In this document: one piece after another, positions 3,256 through 23,345 of the stretch
How the letters are laid out: every line of letters starts with the position of its first letter
Numbering within the stretch: the first letter of the stretch is position 1
DNA from: Bacillota bacterium
GTDB taxonomy: Bacteria > Bacillota > Sulfobacillia > JACIYH01
Length of the DNA: 64,000 nucleotides
NCBI GenBank assembly: GCA_040757085.1
Contig: JBFLXJ010000017.1
Span: 155,095-219,094 of the forward strand
Direction of reading: 5' to 3'
The notes under the pieces: generated by a model
The model's database searches: none
What the model was told of the DNA's origin: nothing
The model's input: the letters and a program-made list of their open reading frames with translations, nothing else
Program-made: the position numbers and the translations under genes

Positions 3256-3508
3256 ACGATCCGGCCTGGGCGATGTGGGGGTCGAACTCGACCGCCTGCG
3301 GGGTGGAGACAGGAGCGACCCTGGCGGGTTAGCAGGACCTGTTCGCGTCCTCTGCAAACGTCCGGTCCCGCCCGGGTGTCTGCTCGATTTCGCCGCCTTA
3401 TCGCTCCCTTAACGGTTACAACCCTGTCGTCGAAAAAATTGGATTAGCAGTGGCAAGCAAGGAGGAATTTGGAGGAGGGTGTAGAATACTGCTGCTCAGA
3501 GAGAAATA
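3256..3508 (+). other. Intergenic region upstream of the riboswitch, no gene seen
   Basis: About 250 bp between the codY stop and the riboswitch aptamer. I see no credible coding sequence. The promoter that must drive the flagellar transcript should lie here, but no strong sigma-A or sigma-D promoter is visible; the best -10-like element is TAGAAT at 3482-3487 with no matching -35. The AT-rich segment 3412-3445 is the least GC-rich part. Confidence 0.4.
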
Positions 3509-3611
3509 AGGGGCTAACCCGACAAAGGCAAACCCGTCGAAAGGCGGGGACGCAAAGCCGCGGGTCTAAGGCTCTCCGGAGCTATGACGGCCGGGCTGCC
3601 GAAGGAGCCCT
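3509..3611 (+). promoter_or_regulatory. c-di-GMP-I (GEMM-I) riboswitch aptamer
   Basis: Matches the GEMM-I consensus in order: GGCAAACC (3527-3534), a stem capped by a GAAA tetraloop (CGAAAG, 3538-3543), GGGACGCAAAGCC (3546-3559), GGGTCTAAGG, and the tetraloop-receptor arm CTATGACGGCCGGGCTGCC (3582-3600) followed by GAAGG. The closing P1 helix pairs GGGCT (3511-3515) with AGCCC (3606-3610). By my alignment to the Vibrio Vc2 aptamer, the ligand-contacting G20 is retained, favouring c-di-GMP over cGAMP. It precedes flgB, the first gene of the flagellar operon, a typical target of this class. The 3' P1 strand also takes part in an antiterminator. Confidence 0.93.
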
Positions 3612-3631
3612 GAAGTTTTTAGGGCTGCTTC
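3601..3631 (+). promoter_or_regulatory. Antiterminator helix of the c-di-GMP riboswitch
   Basis: Bases 3601-3611 pair with 3621-3631: GAAG with CTTC and AGCCCT with AGGGCT, with one G-G mismatch and a 9-nt loop. The left arm reuses the aptamer P1 strand (3606-3610) and the right arm overlaps the left arm of the terminator (3627-3634). The helix is therefore exclusive with both ligand-bound aptamer and terminator, giving an OFF-switch arrangement. Confidence 0.75.
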
Positions 3632-3651
3632 CGCACCGGCGGAAGCTTTTT
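3627..3651 (+). terminator. Intrinsic terminator controlled by the riboswitch
   Basis: Perfect 8-bp stem GCTTCCGC (3627-3634) and GCGGAAGC (3639-3646), tetraloop ACCG, followed by five T (3647-3651). It lies 25 bp before the flgB start, so termination here would block the entire flagellar operon. Confidence 0.88.
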
Positions 3652-3676: not shown

Positions 3677-4072
3677 ATGGGTGAACCATTCTCTACCTGG
3701 CAGGTACGGGGGCTAGAACGGGCTCTCAGTGCGGCCGCGCGCCGTCACGAGGCGCTCGCGAACAACGTGGCCAATGCGGATACCCCCGGATATAAGCGCC
3801 AGGATGTTCATTTTCTGGGGGAGCTGCGCCGGGCCCAGGAACGGCTTGCCCTCACCCGCAGCCATCCCAACCACCTGGGAGGTGCGGGTGGCGCCGTTTC
3901 TGCCCGGGTAGTGAGGGACACGACCACCGGTCGACCGGACGGAAACAACGTGGATATAGAATTCGAGCTGGCCTCCCTGGCGGAAAATGGCCTCTGGTAC
4001 CAGGCCCTTCTCCGACAGCTGGGGGCCAAGTTTTCCATGTGGCGGACCGTGATCACGGAAGGGAGGAAATAG
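3677..4072 (+). CDS. flgB: Flagellar basal-body rod protein FlgB
   Basis: Proximal rod subunit of the flagellar basal body, exported by the flagellar type III system. The 131-residue protein has the family N-terminal heptad-like helix with HEALANNVANADTPGYKRQDV, and a C-terminal helical segment ending LRQLGAKFSMWRTVI that packs with the N-terminal one. Middle region contains the usual NNVDIEFELASL motif. Normal length for FlgB. First gene of the operon, directly behind the riboswitch terminator; flgC begins 2 nt after its stop. ATG start with a GGGCGGGC-type ribosome site. Confidence 0.95.
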   Translation: MGEPFSTWQVRGLERALSAAARRHEALANNVANADTPGYKRQDVHFLGELRRAQERLALTRSHPNHLGGAGGAVSARVVRDTTTGRPDGNNVDIEFELASLAENGLWYQALLRQLGAKFSMWRTVITEGRK

Positions 4073-4074
4073 CC

Positions 4075-4551
4075 ATGGAACTGTTCCGGGCCATGGATAC
4101 GAGTGCCTCGGCACTGACCGCCCAGCGTCTGCGCATGGAGGTGACGGCGGCGAATCTGGCCAACGCTGAGTCCACGCGCACCCCCGAGGGGGGGCCCTAC
4201 CGGCGCCGGGTGGTGCGGCTGGGCGAGCGACCCCCGGCACCGCCGGCCGGGGAAAGCTGGGGGCGGACCCTGGCCCTGGCTGCGGGCATGCCGTCGCGGA
4301 CGGCTTCAACCCGGGGGGGAGGGGGAACCCGGGTACTGGCCATCAGTGAGGACCCCACGCCCCTGCGCAGGGAGTTCCGCCCGGGTCATCCGGACGCCGA
4401 TGCTTCGGGGTACGTGCTGATGCCCAATGTCAACCCGGCCCTGGAGATGGTGGAACTCATCGCCGCCAGCAGGGCATACGAAGCCAGTTTGGCCACCCTG
4501 GAGACGACCAAGTCCATGGTCCAGCGCACCCTCGACCTGGGGCGCCGCTGA
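4075..4551 (+). CDS. flgC: Flagellar basal-body rod protein FlgC
   Basis: Second proximal rod component. Start chosen at ATG 4075, which has GGGAGG at 4061-4066 and yields MELFRAMDTSASAL, the normal FlgC beginning; an upstream in-frame GTG at 4039 would run through flgB. N-terminal rod motif RMEVTAANLANAESTRTPEGGPYRR and C-terminal ELIAASRAYEASLATLETTKSM are family hallmarks, the latter also containing the NPALEMVEL segment. 158 residues, slightly long because of a Pro/Gly-rich middle. Translationally close to flgB and followed by fliE, as in Bacillus. Confidence 0.95.
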   Translation: MELFRAMDTSASALTAQRLRMEVTAANLANAESTRTPEGGPYRRRVVRLGERPPAPPAGESWGRTLALAAGMPSRTASTRGGGGTRVLAISEDPTPLRREFRPGHPDADASGYVLMPNVNPALEMVELIAASRAYEASLATLETTKSMVQRTLDLGRR

Positions 4552-4610
4552 GGAGCAATCCGGGGTGACCATGAGCGGCCGTCTGGGGCAACGGTGAGGA
4601 GGTAAGAACC

Positions 4611-4934
4611 GTGACTCCAGTAAGCGGGGTATCGCGAGCGGGGATGCATCTCTCTCCGGTGGTGGATCAGGCCGCCGATGCCGTACGCGGCCAGGCAGGT
4701 GCCACGCCCCCGGGCGGGTCGTTCGGCCAGTTGCTGGGACGGGCCCTGGAGGGACTCTCCGCCCTGGAAAGCCGGGCGGACCAGCTCACCGCCATGCTGG
4801 CGCGGGGCGAGCCCGTGGAACTGCATGAGGTGATCATCGCCACCGAGAAGGCGCAACTGGCCCTGGATCTGGCCGTACAGATGCGCAACCGGGTGGTGGA
4901 GGCGTATCAGGAGATCATGAGGATGCCCGTGTGA
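4611..4934 (+). CDS. fliE: Flagellar hook-basal body complex protein FliE
   Basis: MS-ring/rod junction protein and the first rod-type substrate of the flagellar exporter. 107 residues; the C-terminal half VELHEVIIATEKAQLALDL followed by VQMRNRVVEAYQEIMRMPV is the conserved FliE signature. The N-terminal third is poorly conserved, as usual in the family. GTG start at 4611 is supported by a strong GAGGAGGTAAG Shine-Dalgarno 6-10 nt upstream. Sits in the invariant flgB-flgC-fliE-fliF order. Confidence 0.94.
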   Translation: MTPVSGVSRAGMHLSPVVDQAADAVRGQAGATPPGGSFGQLLGRALEGLSALESRADQLTAMLARGEPVELHEVIIATEKAQLALDLAVQMRNRVVEAYQEIMRMPV

Positions 4935-4958
4935 GTTTGCTGAGAGGGAGCGAGGCAA

Positions 4959-6503
4959 GTGGCGGGGTGGAGGGATCTGGGGAGCAGGGGTCTGGCGTGG
5001 TGGCGCGGGCTTTCCCACGGCGCCAGAACGCTCCTGGGGTTGGGCCTGGTGGCGGTGGTGCTGGCAGGCGGTTTGATGGCGTTCCTGTCCCAGCCCCGTT
5101 TCGTCCCCCTGTACACCGGGCTCGATATCACCGACGCCGCCCGCATTACCGAGAAGCTGGGTGAGCAGGGTGTGCCCTACCGTTTGCGGGATGAGGGGCG
5201 CACGGTACTGGTTCCCGCCCAGCAGGTCTACCGGGCCCGGCTGAGCCTGGCCGCCCAGGGCCTGCCCAGGCAGGGTACGGTGGGGTTTGAGATTCTGGAC
5301 AAGCCCCCCCTGGGCGCCACTGAATCTGACCGACGCCTGGCTTACCTGCGTGCTTTGCAGGGGGAGCTGGCCCGCACCATCACCCAGGTGGAGGGGGTAG
5401 AGCAGGCCCGGGTACATATCGTGGTGCCCGAGCCCCGGTTGTTCGCCAGCCAGGAACACCCGGTCACCGCAGCCGTGCTGCTCAAGCTGCGTCCGGGCAC
5501 AGAACTGGGGGTGGAGCAGGTGCGCGGCATCGTCCACCTGGTCACCCACAGTGTAGAAGGGCTGCGTCCGGACGGGGTTTCCGTGGTAGACCAGTACGGG
5601 CGGGTGCTATCGGCGCAGGTGGTGGACGACACCTCCCCGTCGGGGACGGCTGACCGGTTGCTGGAGGTGCAGCGCCAGTTCCAGGCTCATATGGAGCAAC
5701 GCCTGCAGTCCCTGCTGGAGCAGGTGCTGGGCCTGGGGAATGTGGTGACCCGGGTGACGGCGGAACTCAACTTCGACAGCCGCACGGTGGAGCGCCAGCT
5801 CTTCGAGCCGGGACCGGACGATGGCGTGGTACGCAGCATCCAGGAGCTGGAGGAAACGTTTTCGGGTCAGGCCGGCAGCCTGCCTCCCACGAATGGTAAT
5901 GTACCTGGATACCAGGTGGGAGGTTCGGAGGGACCGGTCTCCTACCAGCGGCGAGAGGTGACCCGCAACCTGGAAGTGGGACAGGTGCGGGAGCAAATGG
6001 TGGTGATGCCGGGGAGCGTGCGGCGGCTGTCGGTAGCGGTGGTGGTGAACCGGGAACTCGAGCCCGCCCAGCAGGAAGCGATCGGCAGGCTGGTGGCGGC
6101 AGCCATCGGTTCCGACCCGGCCCGCCAGGACCAGATCACCGTGCTGGGCATTCCCTTCGCGACCCGCTGGGTCGATCTGGAGGAGAAACCAACCACCCCG
6201 CCTGCGGCAGTGCGCCTGCCCGATTGGCGGTATCTGGCAGCAGGCGGAGGAGGTGTGGTGGTCTTGCTGTTTGCCCGGTGGCTGCGGGGGAGGAGGCGCC
6301 GGCGGCTGGTGCGCGCGCCCGAACCGGCAGTGGTTCCCGCCCCCACCCCGGTGGCCGGAGCAGAACCCACCCGGGCGGCGGCACCGGAGGAGCCGGAGGG
6401 GCTCGCCGACGAAGCCCGCCTGCGGGCAGAGGTAGAAAAGCTGGCGCGTAAGTCGCCCGAGACGGTTGCCCAGCTCATCAGGGCCTGGATGGCGGAGGAA
6501 TGA
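4959..6503 (+). CDS. fliF: Flagellar MS-ring protein FliF
   Basis: Forms the inner-membrane MS ring that houses the export gate and carries FliG. 514 residues with an N-terminal transmembrane helix (about residues 28-47, LLGLGLVAVVLAGGLMAFL), two ring-building motifs in the periplasmic-side region (PLYTGLDITDAARITEKL and ARVHIVVPEPRLFASQEHP are typical), a long linker with PGYQVGG, a second transmembrane segment near residues 427-443, and a cytoplasmic Ala/Pro/Glu-rich tail ending in the FliG-binding helix KSPETVAQLIRAWMAEE. GTG start. fliG begins 4 nt after the stop. Confidence 0.96.
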   Translation: MAGWRDLGSRGLAWWRGLSHGARTLLGLGLVAVVLAGGLMAFLSQPRFVPLYTGLDITDAARITEKLGEQGVPYRLRDEGRTVLVPAQQVYRARLSLAAQGLPRQGTVGFEILDKPPLGATESDRRLAYLRALQGELARTITQVEGVEQARVHIVVPEPRLFASQEHPVTAAVLLKLRPGTELGVEQVRGIVHLVTHSVEGLRPDGVSVVDQYGRVLSAQVVDDTSPSGTADRLLEVQRQFQAHMEQRLQSLLEQVLGLGNVVTRVTAELNFDSRTVERQLFEPGPDDGVVRSIQELEETFSGQAGSLPPTNGNVPGYQVGGSEGPVSYQRREVTRNLEVGQVREQMVVMPGSVRRLSVAVVVNRELEPAQQEAIGRLVAAAIGSDPARQDQITVLGIPFATRWVDLEEKPTTPPAAVRLPDWRYLAAGGGGVVVLLFARWLRGRRRRRLVRAPEPAVVPAPTPVAGAEPTRAAAPEEPEGLADEARLRAEVEKLARKSPETVAQLIRAWMAEE

Positions 6504-6507
6504 CCCC

Positions 6508-7515
6508 ATGCTCAGGACCCCCGCCGGGAGGCAAAAAGCGGCCATGCTGCTCATCTCCCTGGGGCCGGAAATATCGGCTCAGGTGTTCCGGCACCTGCGG
6601 GAAGAGGAGATAGAGCAACTGACCCTCGAGATCGCCAACGTGCGCAAGGTACCGCCCGAGGCCCGGGCGCGGGTGTTCGAGGAATTCATGCAGATGTCCT
6701 ACGCCCGCGAATACATGGCCCGGGGCGGCATCGAATACGCCAAGGAGCTGCTGGAGAAGGCTCTGGGAACCCAGAAGGCGCTCGACATCCTGCACCGCCT
6801 CACCGCCACCCTGCAGGTGCGTCCCTTCGATTTCGCCCGCAAGACCGACCCCGGCCAGTTGCGTAACTTCATCCAGAACGAGCATCCTCAAACCATCGCC
6901 CTCGTGCTGGCGTACCTGCAGCCCGAGCAGGCGGCGGCAATCCTCTCCGCCCTGCCTCCCGAGCTGCAGGCGGACGTGGCCCGGCGTATCGCCCTCATGG
7001 ACCGCACCTCCCCCGAGATCATCCGGGAAGTGGAGAGGGTACTGGAACGCAAGCTGAGTTCCCTCACCACCCAGGACTTCGCCGCCGCCGGAGGGTTGGA
7101 AGCGGTGGTAGAAGTGCTCAACCGGGTGGACCGTTCCACCGAGAAGTCCATCATGGAGACCCTGGGGATCAACGATCCCCAACTGGCGGAGGAAATCAAG
7201 AAGCGGATGTTCCTGTTCGAGGACATCGTCACCCTGGACGACAGGTCGGTGCAGCGCATCCTGCGCGAGGTCGACCTCAACCGCGACCTGCCCATGGCGC
7301 TCAAGGTGGCGTCCGAGGAAGTCAAACACAAGGTCTTCCGGAACCTGTCCAAGCGGGCGGTGGAGAACCTCAAGGAAAACATGGACTACCTGGGGCCCGT
7401 GCGCCTGCGCGAGGTGGAGGAGGCCCAGCAGAAGATCGTCAACATCATCCGCCGTTTGGAGGAAGAGGGCGAAGTGGTGATCGCCCGCGGAGGAGGCGAG
7501 GAGATCGTTGTCTAG
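6508..7515 (+). CDS. fliG: Flagellar motor switch protein FliG
   Basis: C-ring protein that contacts FliF and the stator and sets rotation direction. 335 residues; contains QKAAMLLISLGPEISAQVFRHL at the N-terminus, the EHPQTIALVLAYL motif in the middle domain and the C-terminal torque domain with MFLFEDIVTLDDRSVQRILREVD, bearing the conserved charged residues that meet MotA. Start taken at ATG 6508, preceded by GGCGGAGGAA; an upstream GTG-type extension would overlap fliF. The stop overlaps the TTG start of fliH, implying translational coupling. Confidence 0.96.
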   Translation: MLRTPAGRQKAAMLLISLGPEISAQVFRHLREEEIEQLTLEIANVRKVPPEARARVFEEFMQMSYAREYMARGGIEYAKELLEKALGTQKALDILHRLTATLQVRPFDFARKTDPGQLRNFIQNEHPQTIALVLAYLQPEQAAAILSALPPELQADVARRIALMDRTSPEIIREVERVLERKLSSLTTQDFAAAGGLEAVVEVLNRVDRSTEKSIMETLGINDPQLAEEIKKRMFLFEDIVTLDDRSVQRILREVDLNRDLPMALKVASEEVKHKVFRNLSKRAVENLKENMDYLGPVRLREVEEAQQKIVNIIRRLEEEGEVVIARGGGEEIVV

Positions 7516-8461
7516 GGCAAGCGTCGCCCTCATCAAGAAGCATCTGGCCGCACTGGCCGGTTCCCGTCCGGTGGTGGTGGCACCCCCGGCTGACCTCATG
7601 GGGCCGGGTGCCGCTACTGAATCGGCCTGCTGCCCGGCTGCGGATGCTGTAGCGCCACCGGGACACACGGGTTCGGGCGGTGCGCAACCCGCGGGGGCCG
7701 ACCTGGCCCTGGAGGCTGGCCGTGGCGCTCCCGGGGCCGCGGTGGAAAACGACGTGGGAGTGCTGCCCGGCGGGGACAGGGAGGCCGAGGTGGCCAGGAT
7801 GGTGGAGGCGGCGCGGGCCGAGGCCCTCAGGATACACCGGGAAGCGCGGGAGCGGGGTGAAAAGGAAGGTTGGGAATCGGGATTTGCGGCCGGACAGCAG
7901 GCGGCCTGGGCCCAGGTGCGCCAGGAAGCCGAGGAGGCCATGCACGCGGCGCTGGCCATTCTGGAGGATGCCCGCAGGGAACGCCTGGTCATACTGCGTC
8001 AGGCCCAGCAGGACGTGGTGCGGATGGCCCTTGACCTGGCGGCCCGCGTCCTGGAGCGGGAAGTGAGCCTTTCGCCCGAGGTGGTGCGGGAGCAGGCGGC
8101 TGCCCTTGTACGCCGGCTGGAACAGGGGGAGAAGGCGACCCTGCACGTCCACCCCGACGACGTACCCCTTATCCAGCCCTGGTTGCCAGAACTTGCACAG
8201 GCATGTGGTGCCTCCCTGGAGGCGGTGGCAGACCCCGCCGTGGGCAGGGGCGGGGTCATGGTGGAAACGCAACATGGCTACCTCGACGGCAGGCTGGACA
8301 GGCAGTTGCGACGCCTGGGAGAGGCGTTGCTGACCTTGACCAGCACCCTGCCCGACCCCGGCGAAGCCACCGAGCAGAATGCGCCCGTGCTGGGAGGTCA
8401 ACGAGAGGGGCAATGTGCGCCCGAGGTGGGGGGTGAAGGCGACGGGCAGGATGCCGGCTAG
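7508..8461 (+). CDS. fliH: Flagellar assembly protein FliH
   Basis: Regulator of the export ATPase FliI; FliH dimers bridge FliI to the C ring. 317 residues: a variable Pro/Ala-rich first 100 residues, a coiled-coil segment with [34 protein letters not shown] (in parts) where the repeated GxxxG-like and Glu-rich pattern is typical, and the C-terminal FliH/V-type E-subunit domain from about residue 160. Start is TTG at 7508, overlapping the last 8 nt of fliG; no better start fits. Assigned by coiled-coil/C-terminal pattern and its place between fliG and fliI. Confidence 0.9.
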
Positions 8462-9779
8462 TCTACCCTGGGACGAGTTACGGGAACTGGTCAAGCGCTG
8501 CGATCCCGTGCGCCGCGTGGGAGTGGTAACCCAGGTGGTGGGCTTAACCGTAGAAGGTCACGGGCCCGGCGTGCCGGTGGGAGAGGTCTGCCTGGTGTAT
8601 CCCGGAGGGGGGCAACCCCCCGTGCAGGCGGAGGTAGTGGGATTCCGCCAGGGTCGCACCGTGCTCATGCCCCTCGGGGACCTCAGTGGTATCGGCCCCG
8701 GATGCGAGATCGAGGCGGTGGGGTTGCCCCTGGAGGTGGAAGTGGGGCCCGGTCTGCGGGGCCGGGTGCTGGACGGCCTGGGCCGGCCCATCGACGGCAA
8801 GGGACCGTTGCGGGGAGAAACCAGGTATCCGGTGATGGCCAGCCCCCCTGCCCCCCTGGAGCGCCGCTGCATCACCGAGCCCCTCTGGGTGGGCTTGCGC
8901 GTTATAGATGCCGTGCTCACGTGCGGCAAGGGACAGCGCGTGGGGATCTTTGCCGGGAGTGGCGTGGGCAAGAGCGTGCTCATGGGCATGCTGGCCCGCA
9001 ACACCCGGGCCCAGGTGAGCGTGATCGGCCTGGTGGGAGAACGGGGCCGGGAGGTCAAGGATTTCCTGGAAAAGGATCTGGGTCCGGAGGGGTTAAGGAG
9101 GGCGGTGGTGGTGGCGGCCACGTCTGATCAGCCCGCCCTGGTACGCATCCGGGCCGCCTTCGTGGCCACGGCCATTGCCGAGTATTTCCGGGACCAGGGC
9201 CAGGACGTCCTGCTGCTCATGGATTCCGTCACCCGCTTTGCCACTGCCCAGCGCGAGGTGGGACTGGCCATCGGCGAACCTCCTGCCACCCGGGGGTACA
9301 CCCCTTCCGTATTTGCCCTGCTCCCCCGGCTGCTGGAAAGGTCGGGTACCTCGTCCCGGGGAAGCATCACCGGCATCTACACCGTGCTGGTAGAGGGCGA
9401 CGACATGAACGAACCGGTGGCGGACCAGGTGCGCAGCATCCTGGACGGCCACATTGTGCTCTCCCGCGACCTGGCTGCCCAGGGTCACTACCCCGCGGTG
9501 GACGTGCTGGCCAGTGTGAGCCGGTTGGCCAGCGACCTGCAGGACGAGGAACATCAACGCGCGGTGTCCCGCTTGAGGTCTGTGCTCGCCACCTACAAAG
9601 AAGCCGAGGATCTTATCAACATAGGCGCGTACGTGCCCGGCTCCAACCCCGCCATTGACTACGCGCGCAGCCGTATCGGGGCCGTGCGGGCGTTCCTGCG
9701 CCAGGGAACCCGGGAGAAGGCCGACCCGATAGAAGCCCGGGCCCGGCTCATCGACATGCTCAAAGATGCGCCCGAGTGA
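8451..9779 (+). CDS. fliI: Flagellum-specific ATPase FliI
   Basis: Hexameric ATPase that energises substrate entry to the flagellar export gate; homologous to F1 beta. 442 residues from ATG 8451 (an earlier in-frame GTG at 8379 would overlap fliH by 80 nt). P-loop [15 protein letters not shown] near residue 170, Walker B region [13 protein letters not shown], and the FliI/YscN family stretch [18 protein letters not shown] plus [22 protein letters not shown]-terminal beta-barrel and C-terminal helical domain are present and length is normal. The stop is overlapped by an alternative start of fliJ. Confidence 0.96.
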
Positions 9780-9790
9780 GGGGTATAGCC

Positions 9791-10249
9791 ATGAAGCCCT
9801 TCCGTTTCCGCTTCGAAAAGGTGTTGCACATCAGGCAGACCAGGGAGAAGTCCAGCCGTAGCCGCTTTGCCCTGGCCCTGCGCGCCTGGCGGGCGGCGGA
9901 GAAGGCCCTGGAACGGGCACACACCGATCATCAGGATGCCCTGGAGGCCATGGCCACGGCGCGGGCGGGGGGCAACCTGTCCGAGGTGCTGCTCCTGGAG
10001 CCCGGGATCAGGGCTACCGCCAGCCGCCTGCGCCACCAGGCGGAGCGCACGCGGGAGGCGGCTCGGGAGGCATCTCTGCGCAGGGAGGATCTGGTGGTGG
10101 CAACCCGCGCCCGGCGCGTGGTGGAAAAGCTGCGCGAACGCAGGCGCTGGGCCCATCTTTACCAGGAGAACTGGGAAGAGCAGAAACACCTTGACGAAGT
10201 TGCCATCCAGTTCACCGATCGGGTGAGAAAACCCACGGAAAGGAGGTGA
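9791..10249 (+). CDS. fliJ: Flagellar export protein FliJ
   Basis: Small coiled-coil protein that sits in the FliI hexamer like the gamma stalk of F1 and escorts substrates/chaperones. 152 residues, rich in Arg, Glu and Ala with the FliJ start MKPFRFRFEKVLHIRQTREK and the C-terminal Glu/Arg helix EKLRERRRWAHLYQENW. ATG 9791 is favoured over GTG 9776 because it gives the family N-terminus and has GAGGGG upstream. Weak sequence conservation is normal for FliJ; gene order fliI-fliJ-fliK supports the call. Confidence 0.88.
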   Translation: MKPFRFRFEKVLHIRQTREKSSRSRFALALRAWRAAEKALERAHTDHQDALEAMATARAGGNLSEVLLLEPGIRATASRLRHQAERTREAAREASLRREDLVVATRARRVVEKLRERRRWAHLYQENWEEQKHLDEVAIQFTDRVRKPTERR

Positions 10250-10253
10250 TACC

Positions 10254-11690
10254 TTGGACCCCATCGTTACGGCAGAACTTCTGGATGCTGGCGTCGTAAC
10301 CCTGCCCGCCGTTCCGGCATCCGGCAAGGCCCAGCGCCCCTCCTGTCCCACCGGGGACTTCGACCTGGCGCTGGCCGCCCTGCTGGGGCCGGTGGCCCTG
10401 GTCCTTGCCGGACAGTCCAGCTCGGTGCTCCCCGGGGACCCTCAACCTGCCCTGTCGCAGAATCAAGGTGCCACGCGGGACGGCAAAGCGAACCCGGGAC
10501 TCGCGCCGCCGCCTCCCGGGGTGCCCGGCGCAGAGATACCTTCATCGACCGTCCAACCGATCGCTGCAGGGCCTGCCACCGCGACTGCCTCCGTTCCCCC
10601 GGAGGCGAGGTCAGCATCTCTGGTACCCGTGCCCGCAGGTGGGACGGCGGTACCGGGTGTTGCCGGGGGTGGCGAGGCACCGGGGCGCCCTGACGGGCGG
10701 ATGGATGCCCGCCTGGTGAACGTGCGGATCACCGGCTACGTGCCTGCTGGGCAGCCCGAGAGGCCGGCCGTCGCCCCCACCTTACTGCCGGACCAGCCCG
10801 CCATGGCCCCGACCTTGCGTCTGGGCCAGGGTGCATTACCCCCGGCCGCCCCGGCTGGGGGTGAGATGGGCCCGACTACGGGCCTGACGGTGGCAGGAGC
10901 GGGCCAGGCCGGGCTGCCCCGACCTGACGCGGGGGCGCCCGCGGGGAGTGATGCAGTGGTTGCGCCCCCGGGGAGTGATGCGGTGGGTGCGCACGGTTCC
11001 GTGCAGTCGGGCGTTGGCGTCGCCAGTGCTCCGGAGGACAGGGGCACACGGAGTGCAGTTGATCAGCCCAGTACGGCCGGGTCTCGCGAGGACAAGGCTG
11101 TCCTGCGCGACAGCACCGGGCAGGACCGGAGTGCCGGCGAGCAGCGAGAGGTGGTGACCTATCGTGCGGGTGCCGAGCCCTTGCCCGCGGTGACCGGCCG
11201 GGCAGAGCAGGAAGCGACGGGGGTATCCCCGCGGGGCTCCGACGTGCCTCTTCCCCGGCAGCATCCCGGGGCGGTGCCGCGGTACGGTGACTGGCCCGGT
11301 CACCGGCCTGCCGAGCTGGAAGTGCATATTGACGGGGGTGATCTGGGGCCGGTGACCGTGTGGGTGGCCGAACGCCACGGGAAGGTGGCAGCCCGCTTCG
11401 TGGTGGAGGATGGTAACGTCTCCGGCCTCCTGCAGCGGAACATGCCCGAACTGCAGGCCCGCCTCGAGCAGGCCGGGCTGGTGGCTGGCCAACTGGAAGT
11501 GTCGCTGGGAGAATCCGGATACCGCGATCGCCGATCACCTCCTGACGCCTGGCGAGGGCCTGACCGGCTGGGGGGCGTCGGGCCGGGTCCGGGGCGGCTC
11601 CGGGCCCCTCCGGTTACACTGGCGGCCACGTCGGGCCGGGTGGCCCGGTGTCCGGGGACCGGTGTGAGCAACCTGGACGTGCTCATGTGA
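10254..11690 (+). CDS. fliK: Flagellar hook-length control protein FliK
   Basis: Molecular ruler and export-specificity switch for hook assembly. 478 residues; the first two thirds are low-complexity, rich in Pro, Ala and Gly, typical of FliK N-terminal ruler regions. The conserved C-terminal Flg_hook domain lies at about residues 340-425, with LEVHIDGGDLGPVTVWVAE and a run ending in LQARLEQAGLVAGQLEVSLGE. A GC-rich Gly/Arg tail follows. TTG start at 10254 has a near-perfect AGGAGGTGAT ribosome site at 10241-10250, which fixes the start. Partner FlhB is encoded downstream. Confidence 0.88.
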   Translation: MDPIVTAELLDAGVVTLPAVPASGKAQRPSCPTGDFDLALAALLGPVALVLAGQSSSVLPGDPQPALSQNQGATRDGKANPGLAPPPPGVPGAEIPSSTVQPIAAGPATATASVPPEARSASLVPVPAGGTAVPGVAGGGEAPGRPDGRMDARLVNVRITGYVPAGQPERPAVAPTLLPDQPAMAPTLRLGQGALPPAAPAGGEMGPTTGLTVAGAGQAGLPRPDAGAPAGSDAVVAPPGSDAVGAHGSVQSGVGVASAPEDRGTRSAVDQPSTAGSREDKAVLRDSTGQDRSAGEQREVVTYRAGAEPLPAVTGRAEQEATGVSPRGSDVPLPRQHPGAVPRYGDWPGHRPAELEVHIDGGDLGPVTVWVAERHGKVAARFVVEDGNVSGLLQRNMPELQARLEQAGLVAGQLEVSLGESGYRDRRSPPDAWRGPDRLGGVGPGPGRLRAPPVTLAATSGRVARCPGTGVSNLDVLM

Positions 11691-11704
11691 AAGGTGGTGA
11701 TACC

Positions 11705-12097
11705 GTGTATGTGAATGGAGTGGGTGGTCCCCGAGAAGCAGTGCAAATCTCCGCAGGGGTCACGGGCAGGCTGGGCAGCCAGGAATTCCTGCGCCTTCTG
11801 GTGGCTGAGCTTCAGCACCAGAACCCCCTGGAACCCCTCAAGGACCGGGACTTCATGGTGCAACTGGCGCAGTTCAGCAGCCTGGACACATTGCACCGTA
11901 TTGAAGCGGAGCTCAAATCACTGGGCCAGGCGCAGCAGGCCCTTTTGCTGACTGGCCAGCAGGCGCTGGGTCGGCTGGAGGCCGGTGCCGGGAGCCTGCA
12001 GGAGATCGGCGCCAGTCTGAAAACCCTGCAGCGCATCGAGGATCACCTGGCCAGGCTGGTTGAGGTGCTGGGCGGTGCGGGGGAGGCTAACCCATGA
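11705..12097 (+). CDS. flgD: Flagellar hook capping protein FlgD
   Basis: Scaffold that caps the growing hook and lets FlgE polymerise. Only the conserved N-terminal domain is present (130 residues): GSQEFLRLLVAELQHQNPLEP followed by MVQLAQFSSLDTL is diagnostic. Short FlgD proteins without the Ig-like C-terminal part are normal in Bacillota. GTG 11705 is chosen because AAGGTGGTGA sits 5 nt upstream and the longer frame would extend into fliK. The stop overlaps the next start as ATGA. Confidence 0.93.
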   Translation: MYVNGVGGPREAVQISAGVTGRLGSQEFLRLLVAELQHQNPLEPLKDRDFMVQLAQFSSLDTLHRIEAELKSLGQAQQALLLTGQQALGRLEAGAGSLQEIGASLKTLQRIEDHLARLVEVLGGAGEANP

Positions 12098-12561
12098 ACG
12101 TCCGGGGGCCGCTTGATCCTGGCATCGAGCATTCCGTCGACCGCCTGCGCGGTGTGCCTTCCCTCACCGGTCGCAGTGCGAGCCGGGGGCGGGAAGGTGC
12201 GGTTGCGGCAGCTCCGGGGTCCTTCGCCCGCGTGCTAGCCGAGACCGTGGCCGGGCTGCGCATTTCCGAGCACGCCCGCCAGCGCCTGTGCTCGGCTGGG
12301 ATGGGTGCGCACGATCTGGAGGCGGTGGGCCGGGCCGTGGAAAAGCTGGCCGCGCACGGCGGCCGGGAGTCCCTTGTGATGTATAAAGATGCCGCTTTCC
12401 TCGTGAGCGTGAGGAACCGGACTCTTATCACAGTGGTTCCCGCCCACCGCATGCGGGAGCAGATCTTCACCAACATCGATAGCGCTGCCTTCGTGAGCAG
12501 CGAGGACAATTCATCCGGGGCTGGACCCGCATGGGAGGCCACCGGAGAAAGGAGGGCATGA
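12094..12561 (+). CDS. Conserved flagellar operon protein (flgD-flgE intergenic family, TIGR02530-like)
   Basis: 155-residue cytoplasmic protein with no signal or membrane segment. The core ISEHARQRLCSAGMGAHDLE, then AVEKLAAHGGRESLVMYKDAAFLVSVRNRTLITVVP, matches the small family found between flgD and flgE in Bacillota and some other phyla (named TIGR02530 from memory). The last part MREQIFTNIDSAAFV is also typical. Molecular role is not established. ATG start overlaps the flgD stop by 4 nt and it ends 2 nt before the flgE start, so it is tightly embedded in hook assembly genes. Confidence 0.85.
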   Translation: MNVRGPLDPGIEHSVDRLRGVPSLTGRSASRGREGAVAAAPGSFARVLAETVAGLRISEHARQRLCSAGMGAHDLEAVGRAVEKLAAHGGRESLVMYKDAAFLVSVRNRTLITVVPAHRMREQIFTNIDSAAFVSSEDNSSGAGPAWEATGERRA

Positions 12562-12563
12562 CC

Positions 12564-14228
12564 ATGTTGAGGTCGCTTTTCGCAGGCGTGTCTGGCCTGC
12601 GCAATCACCAGATCCGCATGGACGTGATCGGTAACAACATCAGCAACGTCAACACGGTGGGGTTCAAAGCGGGGAGAGCCACCTTTCGGGAGATGTTCAG
12701 CCAGTTGCTGGCGGCTGCTTCCGCTCCCCAGGGAGGGCGGGGAGGCACCAACCCGCTGCAGGTGGGTCTGGGCGTGTCCCTGGCTTCCATCGATACCGTG
12801 CATGAGCAGGGTAACCTGGAGTCCACCGGGGTGAGCACCGACCTGGCCATCGACGGGGCCGGCTTCTTCGTGGTCAGCGATGGTAGCCGCACCTACTACA
12901 CCCGTGCCGGTGCCTTCTCCTGGGACGACAAGTACAACCTGGTGACGCCGTCCGGGCTCAAGGTCATGGGCTGGCTGGCTCAAAGCGGCGTGCTCCCCGC
13001 CAACCGCACCAGGGTGGACCTGAAGCCCATCTCTCTGTCCGACGTGCAGTCCATACCCGCCCGCGCCACCACCGAGATTAAGTTCACCCGCAACCTCGAC
13101 GCGACCGACATGGGTACCTACACCCTTTCGGCCAATTCTCTCAACCTCATCCTGGACGACGGCGACCCCGCCACTGCGCAGGTGACGCGGAAAGTCACCT
13201 TTGAGCTATCGCCCACCAGTGAGTTCAACAAGTGGCGATGGAGATTGGCCGGTGACGGTGTCCAGTTCTCCTTCAACGGTGCTGACTGGCTGGGTGCTGC
13301 CGACGGGTACATCTGGTTTGACGACGCGGGGAAAGTGGACCGGGTGACCGATCTGGCAGGCAATGACCTGGGGAACCTGGACCCCTCCGATCCGCAGCCG
13401 GAGGTGAAGGTGCGGGACGCGACGGACACCAGGCAGGTCGACTACGTCAATTTCCCGGCGCCGGGTACGGACAACAAGGCCTCGTGGGCCATATTCGGGA
13501 CAAATGACCCTTCGGCCAGGATTACGGCGACGTATGAGGATGCGCGGCGGGTGACCTCCATTACGGTGATAGGGGCCAAGGGGGAGACATACAGCGTAAT
13601 CACTACGTTCACCAAGGTCAACGACAACACCTGGGATTGGGTGGCAGCCGTTAAGGACTCTGCCGGGGCCGATGTGGTTCTCACCGGCAAGCCCCACAGC
13701 GGGACGGTTACGTTCGACGTGAGCGGGCGGGTTGACCGGGTAACCGGCGATCTGGTCCAGTTCGGGGCAGCGGGGTACGCGCCCATGACCGTGGAGATGG
13801 ACTTCTACGGCCTGACCCAGTATGCCACCGACTATACGGCACTTGCATCGGAGCAGAACGGGTACGGGCCGGGTGAGTTGGTGTCGGTGACGGTGGACGC
13901 CAAGGGGGTGGTGATGGGATCGTACTCCAATGCCCTATCGTGCCCCCTGGCGCAGGTGGCGCTGGCCAGCTTCTCCAACCCGGCCGGGCTGGTGAAGCGG
14001 GGAGAAACCCTGTACGAGGGGTCGGCCAACTCCGGAGAGGCCCAGGTGGGTGATCCCGGCACCGGCGGGCGGGGCACCATTGCCCCGGGGTCGCTGGAAA
14101 TGTCCAACGTGGATCTGGCTCAGGAGTTTACCAATCTGATCATCACCCAGCGGGGATTCCAGGCCAACTCGCGGGTGATCACCACGGCGGACGAGATGCT
14201 GCAGGACCTGGTTAACCTCAAGCGGTAG
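12564..14228 (+). CDS. flgE: Flagellar hook protein FlgE
   Basis: Structural subunit of the hook. 554 residues from ATG 12564, which gives MLRSLFAGVSGLRNHQIRMD and lies 8 nt after GGAGG; the ATG at 12558 is too close to the ribosome site. N-terminal rod motif VIGNNISNVNTVGFKAGRATF, second conserved block DLAIDGAGFFVVSDG, and C-terminal SNVDLAQEFTNLIITQRGF preceding ANSRVITTADEML are all present. The central domain is enlarged compared with the 264-residue B. subtilis hook, as in many Clostridia, and forms the exposed D1/D2 part. Confidence 0.95.
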   Translation: MLRSLFAGVSGLRNHQIRMDVIGNNISNVNTVGFKAGRATFREMFSQLLAAASAPQGGRGGTNPLQVGLGVSLASIDTVHEQGNLESTGVSTDLAIDGAGFFVVSDGSRTYYTRAGAFSWDDKYNLVTPSGLKVMGWLAQSGVLPANRTRVDLKPISLSDVQSIPARATTEIKFTRNLDATDMGTYTLSANSLNLILDDGDPATAQVTRKVTFELSPTSEFNKWRWRLAGDGVQFSFNGADWLGAADGYIWFDDAGKVDRVTDLAGNDLGNLDPSDPQPEVKVRDATDTRQVDYVNFPAPGTDNKASWAIFGTNDPSARITATYEDARRVTSITVIGAKGETYSVITTFTKVNDNTWDWVAAVKDSAGADVVLTGKPHSGTVTFDVSGRVDRVTGDLVQFGAAGYAPMTVEMDFYGLTQYATDYTALASEQNGYGPGELVSVTVDAKGVVMGSYSNALSCPLAQVALASFSNPAGLVKRGETLYEGSANSGEAQVGDPGTGGRGTIAPGSLEMSNVDLAQEFTNLIITQRGFQANSRVITTADEMLQDLVNLKR

Positions 14229-14286
14229 TGGGCTGTCGGCTTGGGGCCGGGTTGCGGGCAACGGCGGGGGCTGAGGGGGTGACGGG

Positions 14287-14550
14287 GTGATCCGGGTAAC
14301 CAGGCTGAACGGGCATGAGATGGTGCTCAACGCCGACCTCATCGAGACGGTAGAGGCGACGCCCGACACCGTCATCTCCCTCACCACCGGCCGCAAGATC
14401 CTGGTTAGGGAGGCCCCCGAGGAGATAACGAGGCGGGTGGTGGCCTACAGGCGGGCCATCACGGGGCGTGGGTGGCGCGGCACGCGACGCCGTAAGCCCT
14501 CCGCAGGCGACGGGAACGCACGCACGGGAGGAGACATATGGGCGGGGTAG
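14287..14550 (+). CDS. flbD: FlbD/SwrD family protein
   Basis: Small protein of the FlbD family; the B. subtilis member SwrD (YlzI) raises flagellar torque for swarming. The first 60 residues carry the family motif MIRVTRLNGHEMVLNADLIE, then a VEATPDTVISLTTGRKILV stretch. The last 27 residues are Arg/Gly-rich and not conserved. GTG start at 14287 directly after GGGGGTGACGGG. Lies between flgE and fliL exactly as in Bacillus. Confidence 0.9.
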   Translation: MIRVTRLNGHEMVLNADLIETVEATPDTVISLTTGRKILVREAPEEITRRVVAYRRAITGRGWRGTRRRKPSAGDGNARTGGDIWAG

Positions 14551-14587
14551 AGGACGGCGTGAGCGGAGGGGAAGGTGAGGTGAGCGG

Positions 14588-15034
14588 GTGGTGAGGAAAG
14601 CGGGCATCAGAAGGCTGTTCTTGTGGCTGATGGTGGGGGTGCTGGCCCTGGGGGCCATGGGGGGTGTTTCCTACCTGGTGGGGAGCCGTTTGCTTGCCTC
14701 GTCCGGCAGACAGGCCACTGCTCAGGCGGCGGAGGGTGTCCTCTTTCATGCCGGCAAATACCTCACGAACCTGCGGGACGACGGGGGGCGGCGGTACATC
14801 AGCGTGGGTATCACCCTGGAACTCTCCCACTCCCGCATGGCCAGGGAACTTGAGGCCAAGAAGCCTTTGCTGGAGCATACCATCATATCCGTGCTGCGCG
14901 ACAAGACTTACGGGGAACTGGAGGGTGAAGGGGGGATGCTGGCCCTCGCCCGCGACCTGGCTGACCGTATCAATGCCATCGCGGAGTCGGGGAAGGTGCA
15001 GCGCATCTTCTTCACCGAGTTTCTGATCCAGTGA
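14588..15034 (+). CDS. fliL: Flagellar basal body-associated protein FliL
   Basis: Single-pass membrane protein that forms a ring around the stator. 148 residues: short basic N-terminus, transmembrane helix at about residues 9-31 (LFLWLMVGVLALGAMGGVSYLV), and an extracytoplasmic stomatin-like domain with YISVGITLELSHSRMA and the C-terminal VQRIFFTEFLIQ, the most conserved FliL block. GTG start. The stop is overlapped by an alternative GTG of fliM. Confidence 0.93.
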   Translation: MVRKAGIRRLFLWLMVGVLALGAMGGVSYLVGSRLLASSGRQATAQAAEGVLFHAGKYLTNLRDDGGRRYISVGITLELSHSRMARELEAKKPLLEHTIISVLRDKTYGELEGEGGMLALARDLADRINAIAESGKVQRIFFTEFLIQ

Positions 15035-15048
15035 GGGGGAGGGGCAAG

Positions 15049-16038
15049 GTGGAAGTCCTTTCCCAAAAAGAGGTAGACGAACTGTTGCGGGCCCTGGCCT
15101 CCGGGGAACTGGGGGGCAAGCCTGCCCGGCGGGAAGGGCCGGTCATCCGGCCTAGCGTGCGGGTGTACGATTTCCGGCGTCCGGACAAGTTTTCAAAGGA
15201 TCACTTGCGCACTCTCCAGATGGTGCACGAGAACTTCGCCCGCGTCTGGACAACCGTGCTTTCCGCCCAGCTGCGCACCATGGCCAGGGTCACCCTGGAC
15301 GCCGTTGAGCAACTCACATACGACGAGTTCCTGGCTTCGGTGCGCAACCCGGCGGTGTTGTGCCTGGTGAGCATGGAGCCCCTCCCGGGGCGCCAGATGG
15401 TGGATATCCACCCCGCTCTGGCGTTTCCCCTCATCGACCGCCTGCTGGGAGGGTTGGGGACGGCCGAGGTGGGCGAACGTGCCCTCACCGACATCGAGGT
15501 GACGGTGATGGAGAGGGTGGTGAGCGGGATGCTCTCTGCCCTGGTGGAGGCGTGGCAGGGCCTGGTGGCGTTGCGGGCACGCCTGGATTCCATTGAGGCC
15601 AATCCCCTTTTTGCCCAGGTAATCCCTCCCAATGAGGTGACCGCAGTGATCACGTTGACGGCGACGCTGGGGGAAGCGGGGGGCTCGCTGCGGCTGTGCC
15701 TCCCTTACTCCTCCCTGAAGCCGGTGCTGGGACAGCTCACCGCTCATCGCTGGGCAGGTGGGGGGGAAGTGCCCCGGGTGGAGGGAAACGGGGCCAACCT
15801 CCGCGATGTTAGGGTAGAAATGTCGGTGCGACTGGGAAAGGCTACCCTCACCATAGGCCAGTTGCTTGGCCTTGAGCGGGGGGACGTGATCAAGCTCGGA
15901 CAACCCGTGGGTGAGCCACTGACGGTGTACCTCGGTCCCCGCGCCGCCTTCCGGGTGCGACCGGGCCGGGTGGGGAATCGGGTGGCAGTGCAGGTGGTGA
16001 AGGTGCTGGCGGCAAGGGGGGAGGACGACGATGAGTGA
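15049..16038 (+). CDS. fliM: Flagellar motor switch protein FliM
   Basis: C-ring protein that binds phospho-CheY and FliG. Starting at GTG 15049 (GGGGAGGGG just upstream) the product begins [16 protein letters not shown], the CheY-binding peptide of FliM. Middle CheC-like domain includes [20 protein letters not shown] and the FliG-binding region; C-terminal SpoA domain has [20 protein letters not shown] followed by LERGDVIKL. 329 residues, normal. It overlaps fliN by 8 nt, pointing to coupled translation. Confidence 0.96.
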
Positions 16039-16393
16039 GGGTGCCGGCGACAAGGAGCGGGCAGGCAGCGAGCGGGTGGTGGTGGAGAAGGCAGAGTTTG
16101 AGGAACTGGCACCCGCTTCCGGTCGGGGCGAAGGGGTGAGCCTGGACCTTCTGCTGGATGTTCCGCTGCAGGTTACCGTGGAACTGGGGCGGGCCCGGCG
16201 GGCGGTGCGGGACATTCTCAGCCTGGGAGTCGGCTCCATCATCGAACTGGACAAGCTGGCCGGGGAACCAGTGGATGTTCTCGTCAACGGCAAGCTGGTG
16301 GCCCGCGGGGAAGTAGTGGTGGTGGACGAAAACTTCGGGGTTAGGGTCACCGACGTGGTATCCACCGCTGACCGGGTGTCTGCTCTCAGGTAG
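16031..16393 (+). CDS. fliN: Flagellar motor switch protein FliN
   Basis: C-ring SpoA-domain protein. 120 residues; the conserved domain begins at [18 protein letters not shown] and continues through [25 protein letters not shown] to the end. It is the short FliN form: the CheC-like phosphatase domain found in B. subtilis FliY is absent, so phospho-CheY hydrolysis would have to be supplied elsewhere. ATG start overlaps the fliM end. Confidence 0.94.
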
Positions 16394-16454
16394 GCGCCCG
16401 GATGGTCCCATCTGCTGTCAACCGAAGGGTCCTGATGCAAGGAGGGACGCCCGG

Positions 16455-16853
16455 GTGAGGTCTCCGGAGGGAAACGGTCAGGCGGTGGTGGTGGAGCGGG
16501 CCCGCTTCCTGCGGGAGAAGCTGGTGTCTCTGCTGGGCCGGGCCGGCTGGCAGGTGGCGGGGGCAGCCGGGGACGGTCTGCGGGCCCTGGAAGTCATCCG
16601 CACCTCCCGGCCCGACCTGGTGGTGCTGGATCTGGTTCTCCCCGACATGTCGGGAACGGAGCTGATCAGGGTCATCAAGGCGGAGGTCCCCTCCTGCCGT
16701 GTGGTGGTGTGCTCAGCCCTGGTGCAGGCCACGTGGGTGAAGGCAGCCGTGGAGGCGGGGGCGGACGACTTCGTGGTGAAACCGGTGGACGAGAGCAGAT
16801 TCCTGGCGGCGGTGACCAGGGAGCCCCGCCAGGTGCTGAGCGAGCCGGCGTGA
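16455..16853 (+). CDS. CheY-like response regulator receiver protein with altered acidic pocket
   Basis: Single receiver-domain protein (132 residues) in the cheY position after fliN/fliY. Phosphoacceptor Asp59 (DLVVLD), Ser87 (VVVCSA) and Lys109 (DFVVKP) are in place, so the fold is intact. The metal-binding Asp pair normally seen as VDD after strand 1 is replaced by Glu14-Arg15 (VVVERARF), which should weaken Mg-dependent phosphorylation. It may be a CheY with unusual chemistry or a phosphorylation-independent switch-binding protein. GTG start at 16455 after GGAGGGACG. No other chemotaxis gene is in the window. Confidence 0.85.
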   Translation: MRSPEGNGQAVVVERARFLREKLVSLLGRAGWQVAGAAGDGLRALEVIRTSRPDLVVLDLVLPDMSGTELIRVIKAEVPSCRVVVCSALVQATWVKAAVEAGADDFVVKPVDESRFLAAVTREPRQVLSEPA

Positions 16854-16912
16854 ACCCCGCGTAAGCGTAGCGGGAAGGGACTCTTGGCGGCGCAAAGAAG
16901 GGGCGTGGACAG

Positions 16913-18007
16913 ATGGGGTGGGCACTGTTGCAATTCCTGGTCTTCTCGCTGCTGGTGATTGCTCTGGCGTACACCTCCGCCCGGTACTTCGGGCGGCTCA
17001 ACCTGCCCCGGGGTAACCACCTGCACCTCGTGGAGACCATGCCCCTGGGTGGTAACCGCTACCTGTGCCTGGTCAGGTTCCGGGACCGCTGGATGCTCCT
17101 GGGTGTGGGGGAGGGGGTTTCCCTGCTCGCGGAGATGCCCGCCAGCGAAGAAGCGACTCCGGTGCCGGCAGGGCGGAGTTTCCCTGACGTGTTGCGCCAC
17201 CTGATCTCGCGGAAGGGACGGGGCCTCATGCTGGGCCTCATGGTCCTGGTACTGCTGGCGGGTGCCGTGGTGGGGTCGCCGGCTGTGGCGCTCGCGCAAC
17301 TACCTGGGGCACCGGCCCCGCAGGACAGCTGGCCTTTGCCCCGCGTCACTGTGGGCGTGGAGCCGGCGGGTGGGCCGCAGGGGTTGACTCTCACAGTTCA
17401 GATCCTGATTCTGCTCACTGTGCTTTCCCTGGCTCCCGCTATCCTCATCATGCTCACTTCTTTCACCCGCGTGGTGGTGGTGCTTTCCTTCCTGCGCAGC
17501 GCCCTGTCCTTGCAGCAAATGCCCCCCAATCAGGTGCTGGTCGGACTGGCTCTCTTTCTCACCGTGTTCATAATGGCCCCGGTGTGGCAGGACGTGAACC
17601 GTGATGCCCTTCAACCCTACCTGGCCGGGGAAATCGACCAGTCTCAGGCCCTGGCCCGGGCAGAGGCACCCCTGCGTGACTTCATGCTGCGCCAGACCCG
17701 CCCCCAGGATCTGGCCCTGTTCTTGCGTCTGGCGGGACAGCCCCAGCCCGCAGGTCCGGGGGACGTGCCGCTGTGGATGCTTGTGCCTGCATTTGCTACC
17801 AGCGAACTCAAGACCGCCTTTCAGATGGGATTTATCCTCTTCGTGCCCTTTCTGGTCATCGACATGGTGGTGGCCAGTACCCTGATGTCCATGGGGATGC
17901 TGATGCTGCCTCCCATGATGGTGTCTTTGCCCTTTAAGCTGCTCCTCTTTGTACTGGTTGACGGTTGGGATCTCCTGGTGCGCTCTTTGGTGACTTCCTT
18001 CCACTGA
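16913..18007 (+). CDS. fliP: FliO-FliP fusion, flagellar export gate
   Basis: One uninterrupted frame of 364 residues encodes two export-gate proteins. Residues 1-80 are FliO: one membrane helix (4-24) and a cytoplasmic FliO domain with [18 protein letters not shown]. Residues 106-364 are FliP: a signal-peptide-like segment (106-128, ending AVALA before Gln129), [40 protein letters not shown] and the C-terminal [20 protein letters not shown]. The two are normally separate adjacent genes. An internal ATG at 17228 could also produce free FliP, and signal peptidase could cut the fusion after residue 128. FliP is certain; the fusion is what the sequence shows. Confidence 0.92.
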
Positions 18008-18097
18008 AGTGCTCGACGTTGCGGCCACGGGGGAGGAAGGACTGCCAGGGCTCGGGTTGGGAAACGGGAGATGACGGACGAGCTAGGGGTGAGGGAG

Positions 18098-18364
18098 ATG
18101 ACGGACGGGTGGGTGATGGCGCTCGGTCGGGATGCCCTGGTCACCGTGCTGCTGGTGGGGGCTCCCGTGTTTGCCCTGAGCATGGGGGTGGGTCTCCTGG
18201 TCAGCCTGATCCAGGCTACCACCCAGCTCCACGAACAGACCCTGGCTTTCGTCCCCAAAATCGTGGCGGTATTCATAGGATTCCTCCTCTTCGGGGGATG
18301 GATGCTGCGGGTGCTGGTGGCGTTCGCCCAGCGAGCTTTTGCCCAACTGGGCAGCGTGCCCTGA
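18098..18364 (+). CDS. fliQ: Flagellar export gate protein FliQ
   Basis: Two-helix membrane protein of the FliPQR export gate. From ATG 18098 the product is 88 residues, the usual FliQ length, and starts MTDGWVMALGRDALVTVLL; helices lie at about 12-37 and 50-75. LVSLIQATTQLHEQTLAFVPKI is the family signature. An in-frame ATG at 18071 would add nine residues; both starts are preceded by the same 15-bp sequence because the start region is duplicated. Confidence 0.93.
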   Translation: MTDGWVMALGRDALVTVLLVGAPVFALSMGVGLLVSLIQATTQLHEQTLAFVPKIVAVFIGFLLFGGWMLRVLVAFAQRAFAQLGSVP

Positions 18365-18462
18365 CGACGCCATCGGCCCCCGGCCGATGGCGTCACCCGA
18401 AGAGGTACTGGTGCCGGGAGCTGCGATCCCGGGGGAGCCGGGACGGGAAGGAGGGGAGAGCG

Positions 18463-19254
18463 GTGGCCGGGTTGCTGGGGGCACTCGTGAGCGGGATGCC
18501 GGTGTTCATACTGGTGCTGATGCGCCTGACCGGGCTGTTTCTGGCCGCCCCCTTCTGGTCGAGCCGCATGTTCCCCGTCACCGTGAAGGGCTCCTTGTGC
18601 CTGTTTCTGGCCCTCACCGTGCTCCCCACCGTGGACGCTTCCCGCGCCCCCGTTGCCGCCCTGCCTCTGGCTCTGGCCGCGGTGCGGGAGCTGGCCTGGG
18701 GGGCCCTGGCAGGATTCACCGCCTCTCTGTGCTTCGCCGCCGTACAACTGGCCGGGTACTACCTGGACTTCGAGTTGGGGATGGGGATCGCCAACGTGGT
18801 GGATCCCACGTTCGGAGCGCCAGTTCCGGTGGCGGGTACTTTCCTGTACCTGCTTTCCCTGGTGGTTTTCCTGGGTGCAGACGGGCACCACCTGCTGCTC
18901 TCGGCCCTGGTGCGGAGCCTGCAGGTGGTTCCCCCGGGTACGCCCGTACTTTCCGAAGCCGCCGGGGAGGCTTTGGTGGCCCAGGCGGGAGCCATGTTCG
19001 TCCTCGGCCTCGAGCTGGCTGCCCCTCTGGTCCTTCCCATGTTCCTGGCCAACCTGGCCTTGGGGCTGGTGTCCCGCACGGTGCCCCAGATGAACGTATT
19101 CGTGGTGGGCCTGCCCCTCAAGACCTGGCTGGGCGTCCTGTTCCTGACCCTGGCTCTGCCCGCCTATGTGGCGGTCTTCGGAGGATGGCAGGAGAAGGTG
19201 GGGGAAGCGCTGCTGCAGGTGATGATCCCGGCCGCGGGGGGCGGAGGGCCATGA
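18463..19254 (+). CDS. fliR: Flagellar export gate protein FliR
   Basis: Polytopic export-gate protein, 263 residues, about six membrane helices. Conserved segments include MRLTGLFLAAPFWSSRMFPV near the N-terminus, VRELAWGALAGFTASLCFAAVQLAGYYLDF with the acidic residue in helix 3, and GADGHHLLLSALVRSL. Start GTG 18463 is supported by GGAGGGGAGAG and by the position of the first helix; the longer open frame runs back through fliQ and is not used. Stop overlaps the flhB start by 4 nt (ATGA). Confidence 0.94.
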   Translation: MAGLLGALVSGMPVFILVLMRLTGLFLAAPFWSSRMFPVTVKGSLCLFLALTVLPTVDASRAPVAALPLALAAVRELAWGALAGFTASLCFAAVQLAGYYLDFELGMGIANVVDPTFGAPVPVAGTFLYLLSLVVFLGADGHHLLLSALVRSLQVVPPGTPVLSEAAGEALVAQAGAMFVLGLELAAPLVLPMFLANLALGLVSRTVPQMNVFVVGLPLKTWLGVLFLTLALPAYVAVFGGWQEKVGEALLQVMIPAAGGGGP

Positions 19255-22389: not shown

Positions 22390-22403
22390 TGGGAGGTGAG
22401 GAC

Positions 22404-23276: not shown

Positions 23277-23345
23277 TGAGAGGGTTGGCGTGAGAAGCGC
23301 CAGCGTGAGACGCATCACCGTGGGGGGCCTCTGTGTAGGCGAAGG

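Follow-up and report, generated by a model that had tools for sequence, protein, structure and literature searches.

A c-di-GMP-I (GEMM-I) aptamer lies directly before flgB, the first gene of a flagellar operon, in the 64-kb window (the whole stretch of DNA analysed here). This arrangement raises the question of how such an element would switch the operon and from which promoter its leader is transcribed. Our answer is that the flgB-fliA leader very probably holds a cotranscriptional c-di-GMP-I OFF riboswitch, transcribed from a sigma-H-type promoter. The features are collected in Table 1.

Table 1. Features of the flgB leader and operon (positions within the window).
Feature	Position	Strand	Basis or remark
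A/T tract CGAAAAAATT upstream of -35	3431..3441	+	UP-element-like or degenerate 0A box
Sigma-H-type promoter GGAGGAATT-N11-GTAGAAT (predicted)	3461..3487	+	13/13 pattern; matrix score 20.9
P1 5' strand	3510..3515	+	pairs with 3606-3611; probability 0.89 at transcript end 3620
c-di-GMP-I (GEMM-I) aptamer	3517..3603	+	RF01051, 92 bits; alignment; bases checked
Antiterminator left arm, including C3599	3598..3614	+	duplex -23.7 kcal/mol; G3598-C3634, C3599-G3633
P1 3' strand, common to antiterminator left arm	3606..3611	+	folding; bases checked
Antiterminator right arm, overlaps terminator left arm	3618..3634	+	duplex and folding
Intrinsic terminator: 8-bp stem, ACCG loop, U5 tract	3627..3651	+	probability at 3650: 0.12 free, 0.999 with aptamer and P1 held
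flgB, first operon gene	3677..4072	+	TIGR01396 above cut-off
Flagellar operon flgB-flgC-fliE-fliF-fliG-fliH-fliI-fliJ-fliK-flgD-(flg_new)-flgE-flbD-fliL-fliM-fliN-cheY-like-fliO/P-fliR-flhB-flhA-flhF-pilZ(ycgR)-fliA	3677..24838	+	
PilZ/YcgR-type c-di-GMP receptor gene, in operon before fliA	23346..24044	+	PF07238, PF12945
fliA/sigD flagellar sigma factor, homology from near 24050	23768..24838	+	TIGR02479 above cut-off

The aptamer and the genes behind it

The cmscan search matched RF01051 (c-di-GMP-I, GEMM-I) over the complete model (positions 1-87 of 87) with an E-value of 4.7e-17 and a score far above the gathering score of 35 bits, and this was the only RNA family found by Rfam in the whole window. 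Alignment with 21 relatives showed the canonical ligand-contact nucleotides at G3527, A3554 and C3599, which we take to be G20, A47 and C92 in Vc2 numbering. The sequence-only reading had called the element GEMM-I and named the RF01051 search as a check, and the full-length match and the contact nucleotides bear it out. The aptamer is a member of the c-di-GMP-I riboswitches with a pocket of the c-di-GMP type, and is predicted to bind this ligand.

The operon is followed by rpsB at 25411. Between flgB and fliA (3677-24838), neither promoter matches nor a surplus of terminator-like sites were found, and we infer that the operon forms a single transcript. That one switch would gate every flagellar structural and export gene together with the sigma factor, as had been proposed, held only in part: fliA lies in the operon, but flgF/flgG, flgL and flagellin are absent from it. 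Genes resembling flgF/flgG occur on another contig, after mreB, with their own SigH-type promoter and GEMM-I (L003, L245). Two Flagellin_N genes lie on that same contig, of which one is probably a flagellin and the other flgL-like, and no SigD-type promoter beyond chance was found before flagellin with up to 3 mismatches allowed. The genome has 7 GGDEF matches and 1 EAL match. Further GEMM-I riboswitches of the genus (L002 and L004, with L010 and L011) include one before a subtilase gene (L002) and one before the gene of a secreted TPR/Cu_amine_oxidN1 protein (L004); no exact SigH-type match was found before these two.

Switching helices and the order of folding

P1 comprises six pairs. The antiterminator consists of 3601-3604/3628-3631 and 3606-3614/3618-3626, with a G.G mismatch at 3605/3627, and is extended by the pairs G3598-C3634 and C3599-G3633, the latter capturing the ligand-pairing base C3599. 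The terminator stem is formed by 3627-3634/3639-3646 and is followed by T5. None of 200 shuffles reached the duplex energy of the antiterminator, nor did any swap of its arms with those of other families (mean of -10.6 kcal/mol). The folding z-score of the leader was -3.1. The flgB start lies ~25 nt 3' of the T-tract, outside the switching helices. The sequence-only reading had already placed the antiterminator here, with the P1 3' strand in its left arm and its right arm overlapping the left arm of the terminator; all three points agree with our pairings, but the antiterminator is longer than had been noted by the two extending pairs.

Successive transcript lengths were folded at equilibrium with or without the aptamer and P1 held, using energies for mesophile temperature and leaving out the ligand energy. 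P1 formed first and was replaced by the antiterminator by 3632 (probability of 0.99). Holding the aptamer and P1 raised the terminator at 3650 from 0.12 to 0.999, consistent with the OFF polarity proposed earlier. When only P2 and P3 were held, the value was 0.57, indicating that the ligand-free probability depends on the folding assumptions. The three helices had been read as mutually exclusive. This holds for P1 with the antiterminator and for the lower antiterminator with the terminator; the upper antiterminator hairpin, however, coexists with the terminator, and this joint state (-60.1 kcal/mol) was the most stable of those evaluated. The other states ranged from -52.4 to -56.1 kcal/mol, including the full antiterminator (-55.7 kcal/mol) and P1 with the terminator (-56.1 kcal/mol, ligand energy left out). 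The terminator thus wins at equilibrium even without ligand, which speaks against the OFF model unless antitermination is kinetic, as readthrough therefore has to be. In two congeners, the terminator was dominant at equilibrium (0.89 and 0.95).

The predicted course of events is as follows. Transcription would start a little upstream of P1, and the aptamer and P1 would fold first. If c-di-GMP is bound before RNA polymerase passes ~3634, the aptamer and P1 would hold and the antiterminator would be blocked, allowing the 3627-3646 hairpin to end transcription. With no ligand, the 3618-3634 strand would invade P1, pair with 3598-3614 and capture C3599, and this pairing would occupy the left arm of the terminator long enough for readthrough. 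Low c-di-GMP would give flagella, and high c-di-GMP none.

This arrangement resembles Cd1 (Cdi-1-3) of the Clostridioides difficile flgB operon, where GEMM-I also precedes flgB (PMC6366702, PMC9262584). Both operons are 21-23 kb in size with the flagellar sigma factor inside, and both leaders share a terminator-based OFF switch, measured for Cd1 (PMC9262584, PMC6366702) and predicted for the window, as well as an antiterminator that captures the ligand-pairing C and is only transiently stable. In Cd1, the antiterminator pairs C87 with G147 and ligand binding is lost at a length of 148; its antiterminators refold into the terminator over time, so that antitermination is kinetic (PMC9262584). 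The Cd1-type wiring recurs in the window: the antiterminator cannot coexist with P1, takes up the ligand-pairing C and shares sequence with the left arm of the terminator. The distance from this C to its captor is 34 nt in the window as opposed to ~60 nt in Cd1, and a shorter decision window is therefore predicted. Transcription of Cd1 starts at a SigA promoter, and its 496-nt leader includes an invertible flagellar switch as well (PMC7438776), whereas a SigH-type promoter stands just before P1 in the window. This promoter difference sets the window apart from Cd1 itself but does not touch what defines the mechanism. By this analogy, the switch is expected to work like Cd1 and is of a kind already known; what looks new is the sigma-H-like promoter before a flagellar switch, in the window and in many related bacteria.

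Two other readings of the same aptamer were weighed. It is very unlikely that the element acts as an ON, translational or processing switch. GEMM-I polarity does vary by species, as Bc2 of Bacillus thuringiensis is an ON switch and those of Vibrio cholerae do not rely on a terminator (PMC6366702), and the final equilibrium prefers the terminator with or without P1. However, the terminator, located 3' of the aptamer, pairs through its left arm with the region of the P1 3' strand, holding P1 increased termination in the window and decreased it at none of 48 class loci, and flgB has no part in the switching helices. Extremely unlikely is a ligand other than c-di-GMP, such as cGAMP, for the window aptamer. 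The GEMM-I change that favours cGAMP is G20A (PMC6274999), whereas the window keeps G20 along with A47 and C92, its best model is RF01051, and GGDEF genes are present in the genome. The points in favour of another ligand are that position 20 changes GEMM-I ligand preference (PMC6274999) and that the aptamers of two congeners (L013 and L014) go to RF03167 by E-value. As a sign of a different ligand in the window we rejected this assignment, which is only E-value competition within a clan. RF03167 (c-di-GMP-I-GGC) and the cGAMP-type GEMM-I of Geobacter pilM have their fold and clan in common with the window aptamer, but pilM is a cGAMP ON switch (PMC9262584), as opposed to the canonical c-di-GMP-I pocket found here.

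A sigma-H-type promoter before the aptamer

The SigH consensus of Bacillus subtilis consists of AGGAWWW and GAAT elements 11-12 nt apart. SigH promoters of C. difficile show the same elements and spacing (PMC7438776), and so does the window, where the match was the only one to the sigma-H consensus in 64 kb (0.01 expected). The sequence-only reading had mentioned neither this promoter nor the spread of the arrangement through the class. This motif was first spotted by eye, and the real test is therefore provided by the other loci of the class. Matches at 13/13 positions were found before the aptamer at 21 loci in 10 families, against 0.01 expected by shuffling, and matches at 12 or more of 13 positions at 38 loci in 19 families (1.05 expected). 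When a weight matrix was derived from the SigH promoters of C. difficile listed in Table 3 of PMC7438776, 47 of 66 loci reached a score of at least 9 in sense and 0 of 66 in antisense orientation; the window site exceeded the training median of 17.9. Further upstream, the background was above zero (17 of 132 segments), perhaps from longer leaders in some families. The motif also occurs at some flgB loci without the riboswitch (L033, L168, L170, L175).

The genome encodes SigH (TIGR02859, 378.5 bits; cut-off of 294.8) and has 34 exact matches to the sigma-H pattern, compared to 0 for the reversed pattern. As judged from the translations, these sites include ones before ftsA, a MinC-like gene, mraZ, two HU genes and the second flagellar GEMM-I; the ftsA and MinC-like sites can be likened to minC and ftsZ, SigH targets in C. 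difficile (PMC7438776). One 27-base SigH-type site is present in two identical copies (L225, G000:C17:335263, and L227, G000:C20:14089). The L227 copy immediately precedes a reading frame for an IS66-like transposase, and the site may thus travel with a mobile element. The flgB operon of C. difficile is SigA-dependent (PMC7438776), and the literature searched contained no description of an flgB operon driven by SigH. Together with the match itself, these patterns suggest that SigH uses the flgB leader promoter.

A sigma-A promoter with TAGAAT as its -10, or a Spo0A box, is an unlikely explanation of the same site. TAGAAT does resemble a sigma-A -10, TGTCGAAT in many class loci holds a 0A box core, TGTCGAA resembles the -10 of many relatives, and upstream sequences hold more 0A-like sites (allowing 1 mismatch) than expected, 22 as opposed to 8.9 +- 2.7. 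However, no sigma-70 match was found that would correspond to the SigA promoter of Cd1, and the C. difficile SigH matrix selects the same sites. Neither explanation accounts for a -35 half of the form RNAGGAWWW kept at a constant distance of 11-12 nt, and the Spo0A-box reading of the -10 element was rejected on this ground, the boxes being only mildly enriched. A tract and TCGAAAA k-mers were enriched upstream of -35 in 49 class loci. An A/T tract (CGAAAAAATT and similar) is conserved at this place in most loci of the class.

Spread across the class and a possible regulatory loop

GEMM-I was carried by 137 of 154 genomes of the class and lay directly upstream of flgB at 66 of the 90 loci examined (29/37 families). 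A hairpin with a U-tract followed 62 of 68 aptamers in a permissive search, of which a few are probably spurious. Among the 48 loci that passed a stricter placing, holding P1 raised the terminator by >0.1 at 18 (10 families) and lowered it at none; at the remaining loci, the terminator was mostly already dominant at equilibrium. Antiterminators were predicted at 58 loci, and at 25 of these, from 13 families, the C92 equivalent is among the captured bases. The class-wide duplex-swap test gave a modest signal (14/59 at P<0.1), and we therefore base the wiring claim on the window and its congeners. Among the four copies in the genus, the helix arms were nearly invariant while the linker and flanks varied, which indicates conservation, not covariation, and makes covariation of the switching helices uninformative.

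The order codY, GEMM-I, flgB was also found in MAGs such as UBA3570 and a Symbiobacterium sp. MAG, and in the complete genome of Carboxydocella thermautotrophica, but without the SigH motif in the latter; the closest match to the window CodY was 72% identical. Several variants were observed among the relatives. One GEMM-I before flgB (L018:1959-2049, minus strand, the same locus as L069:3904-3994) carries A at the G20 equivalent (AAAAGC), which is the change favouring cGAMP in GEMM-I. Tandem GEMM-I pairs precede flgB at L015:2026-2122 and 2225-2318 and at L205:391-479 and 554-642. In a congener (L005, G002:C19), a second GEMM-I leader is followed by an apparent shortened flgB remnant, and its promoter spacer has an 8-nt deletion with the aptamer and terminator kept. 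At L076:4058-4231, the match before flgB spans 174 nt compared to ~87, which suggests that this aptamer contains a large insertion.

Two of the 34 SigH-type sites stand just before GGDEF genes, one encoding an HD-GYP/GAF/GGDEF protein (L242:598-625) and the other a MASE9-GAF-GGDEF cyclase (L243:1209-1235). In the two congeners, each motif still matches at 12 or 13 of 13 positions, also where the spacer and the surrounding sequence have changed. SigH is the factor of the transition to starvation and sporulation. It is quite possible, if still tentative, that across the class SigH starts the flgB and flgF/flgG transcripts through c-di-GMP-I leaders as well as those of these c-di-GMP enzymes, a feed-forward loop tying motility to starvation and sporulation entry. 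If so, the factor that starts flagellar transcription would also set the signal that terminates it, although the sign of the loop is ambiguous because HD-GYP domains degrade c-di-GMP.

These data extend the Cd1-type flagellar OFF switch, as predicted here, to dozens of families in a class that is for the most part uncultured, and an antiterminator that captures the ligand-pairing base appears there repeatedly. Judging by the promoters, SigH would set motility going in these bacteria and c-di-GMP would then act as a veto, and the choice between swimming, attachment and sporulation could become testable at one leader.
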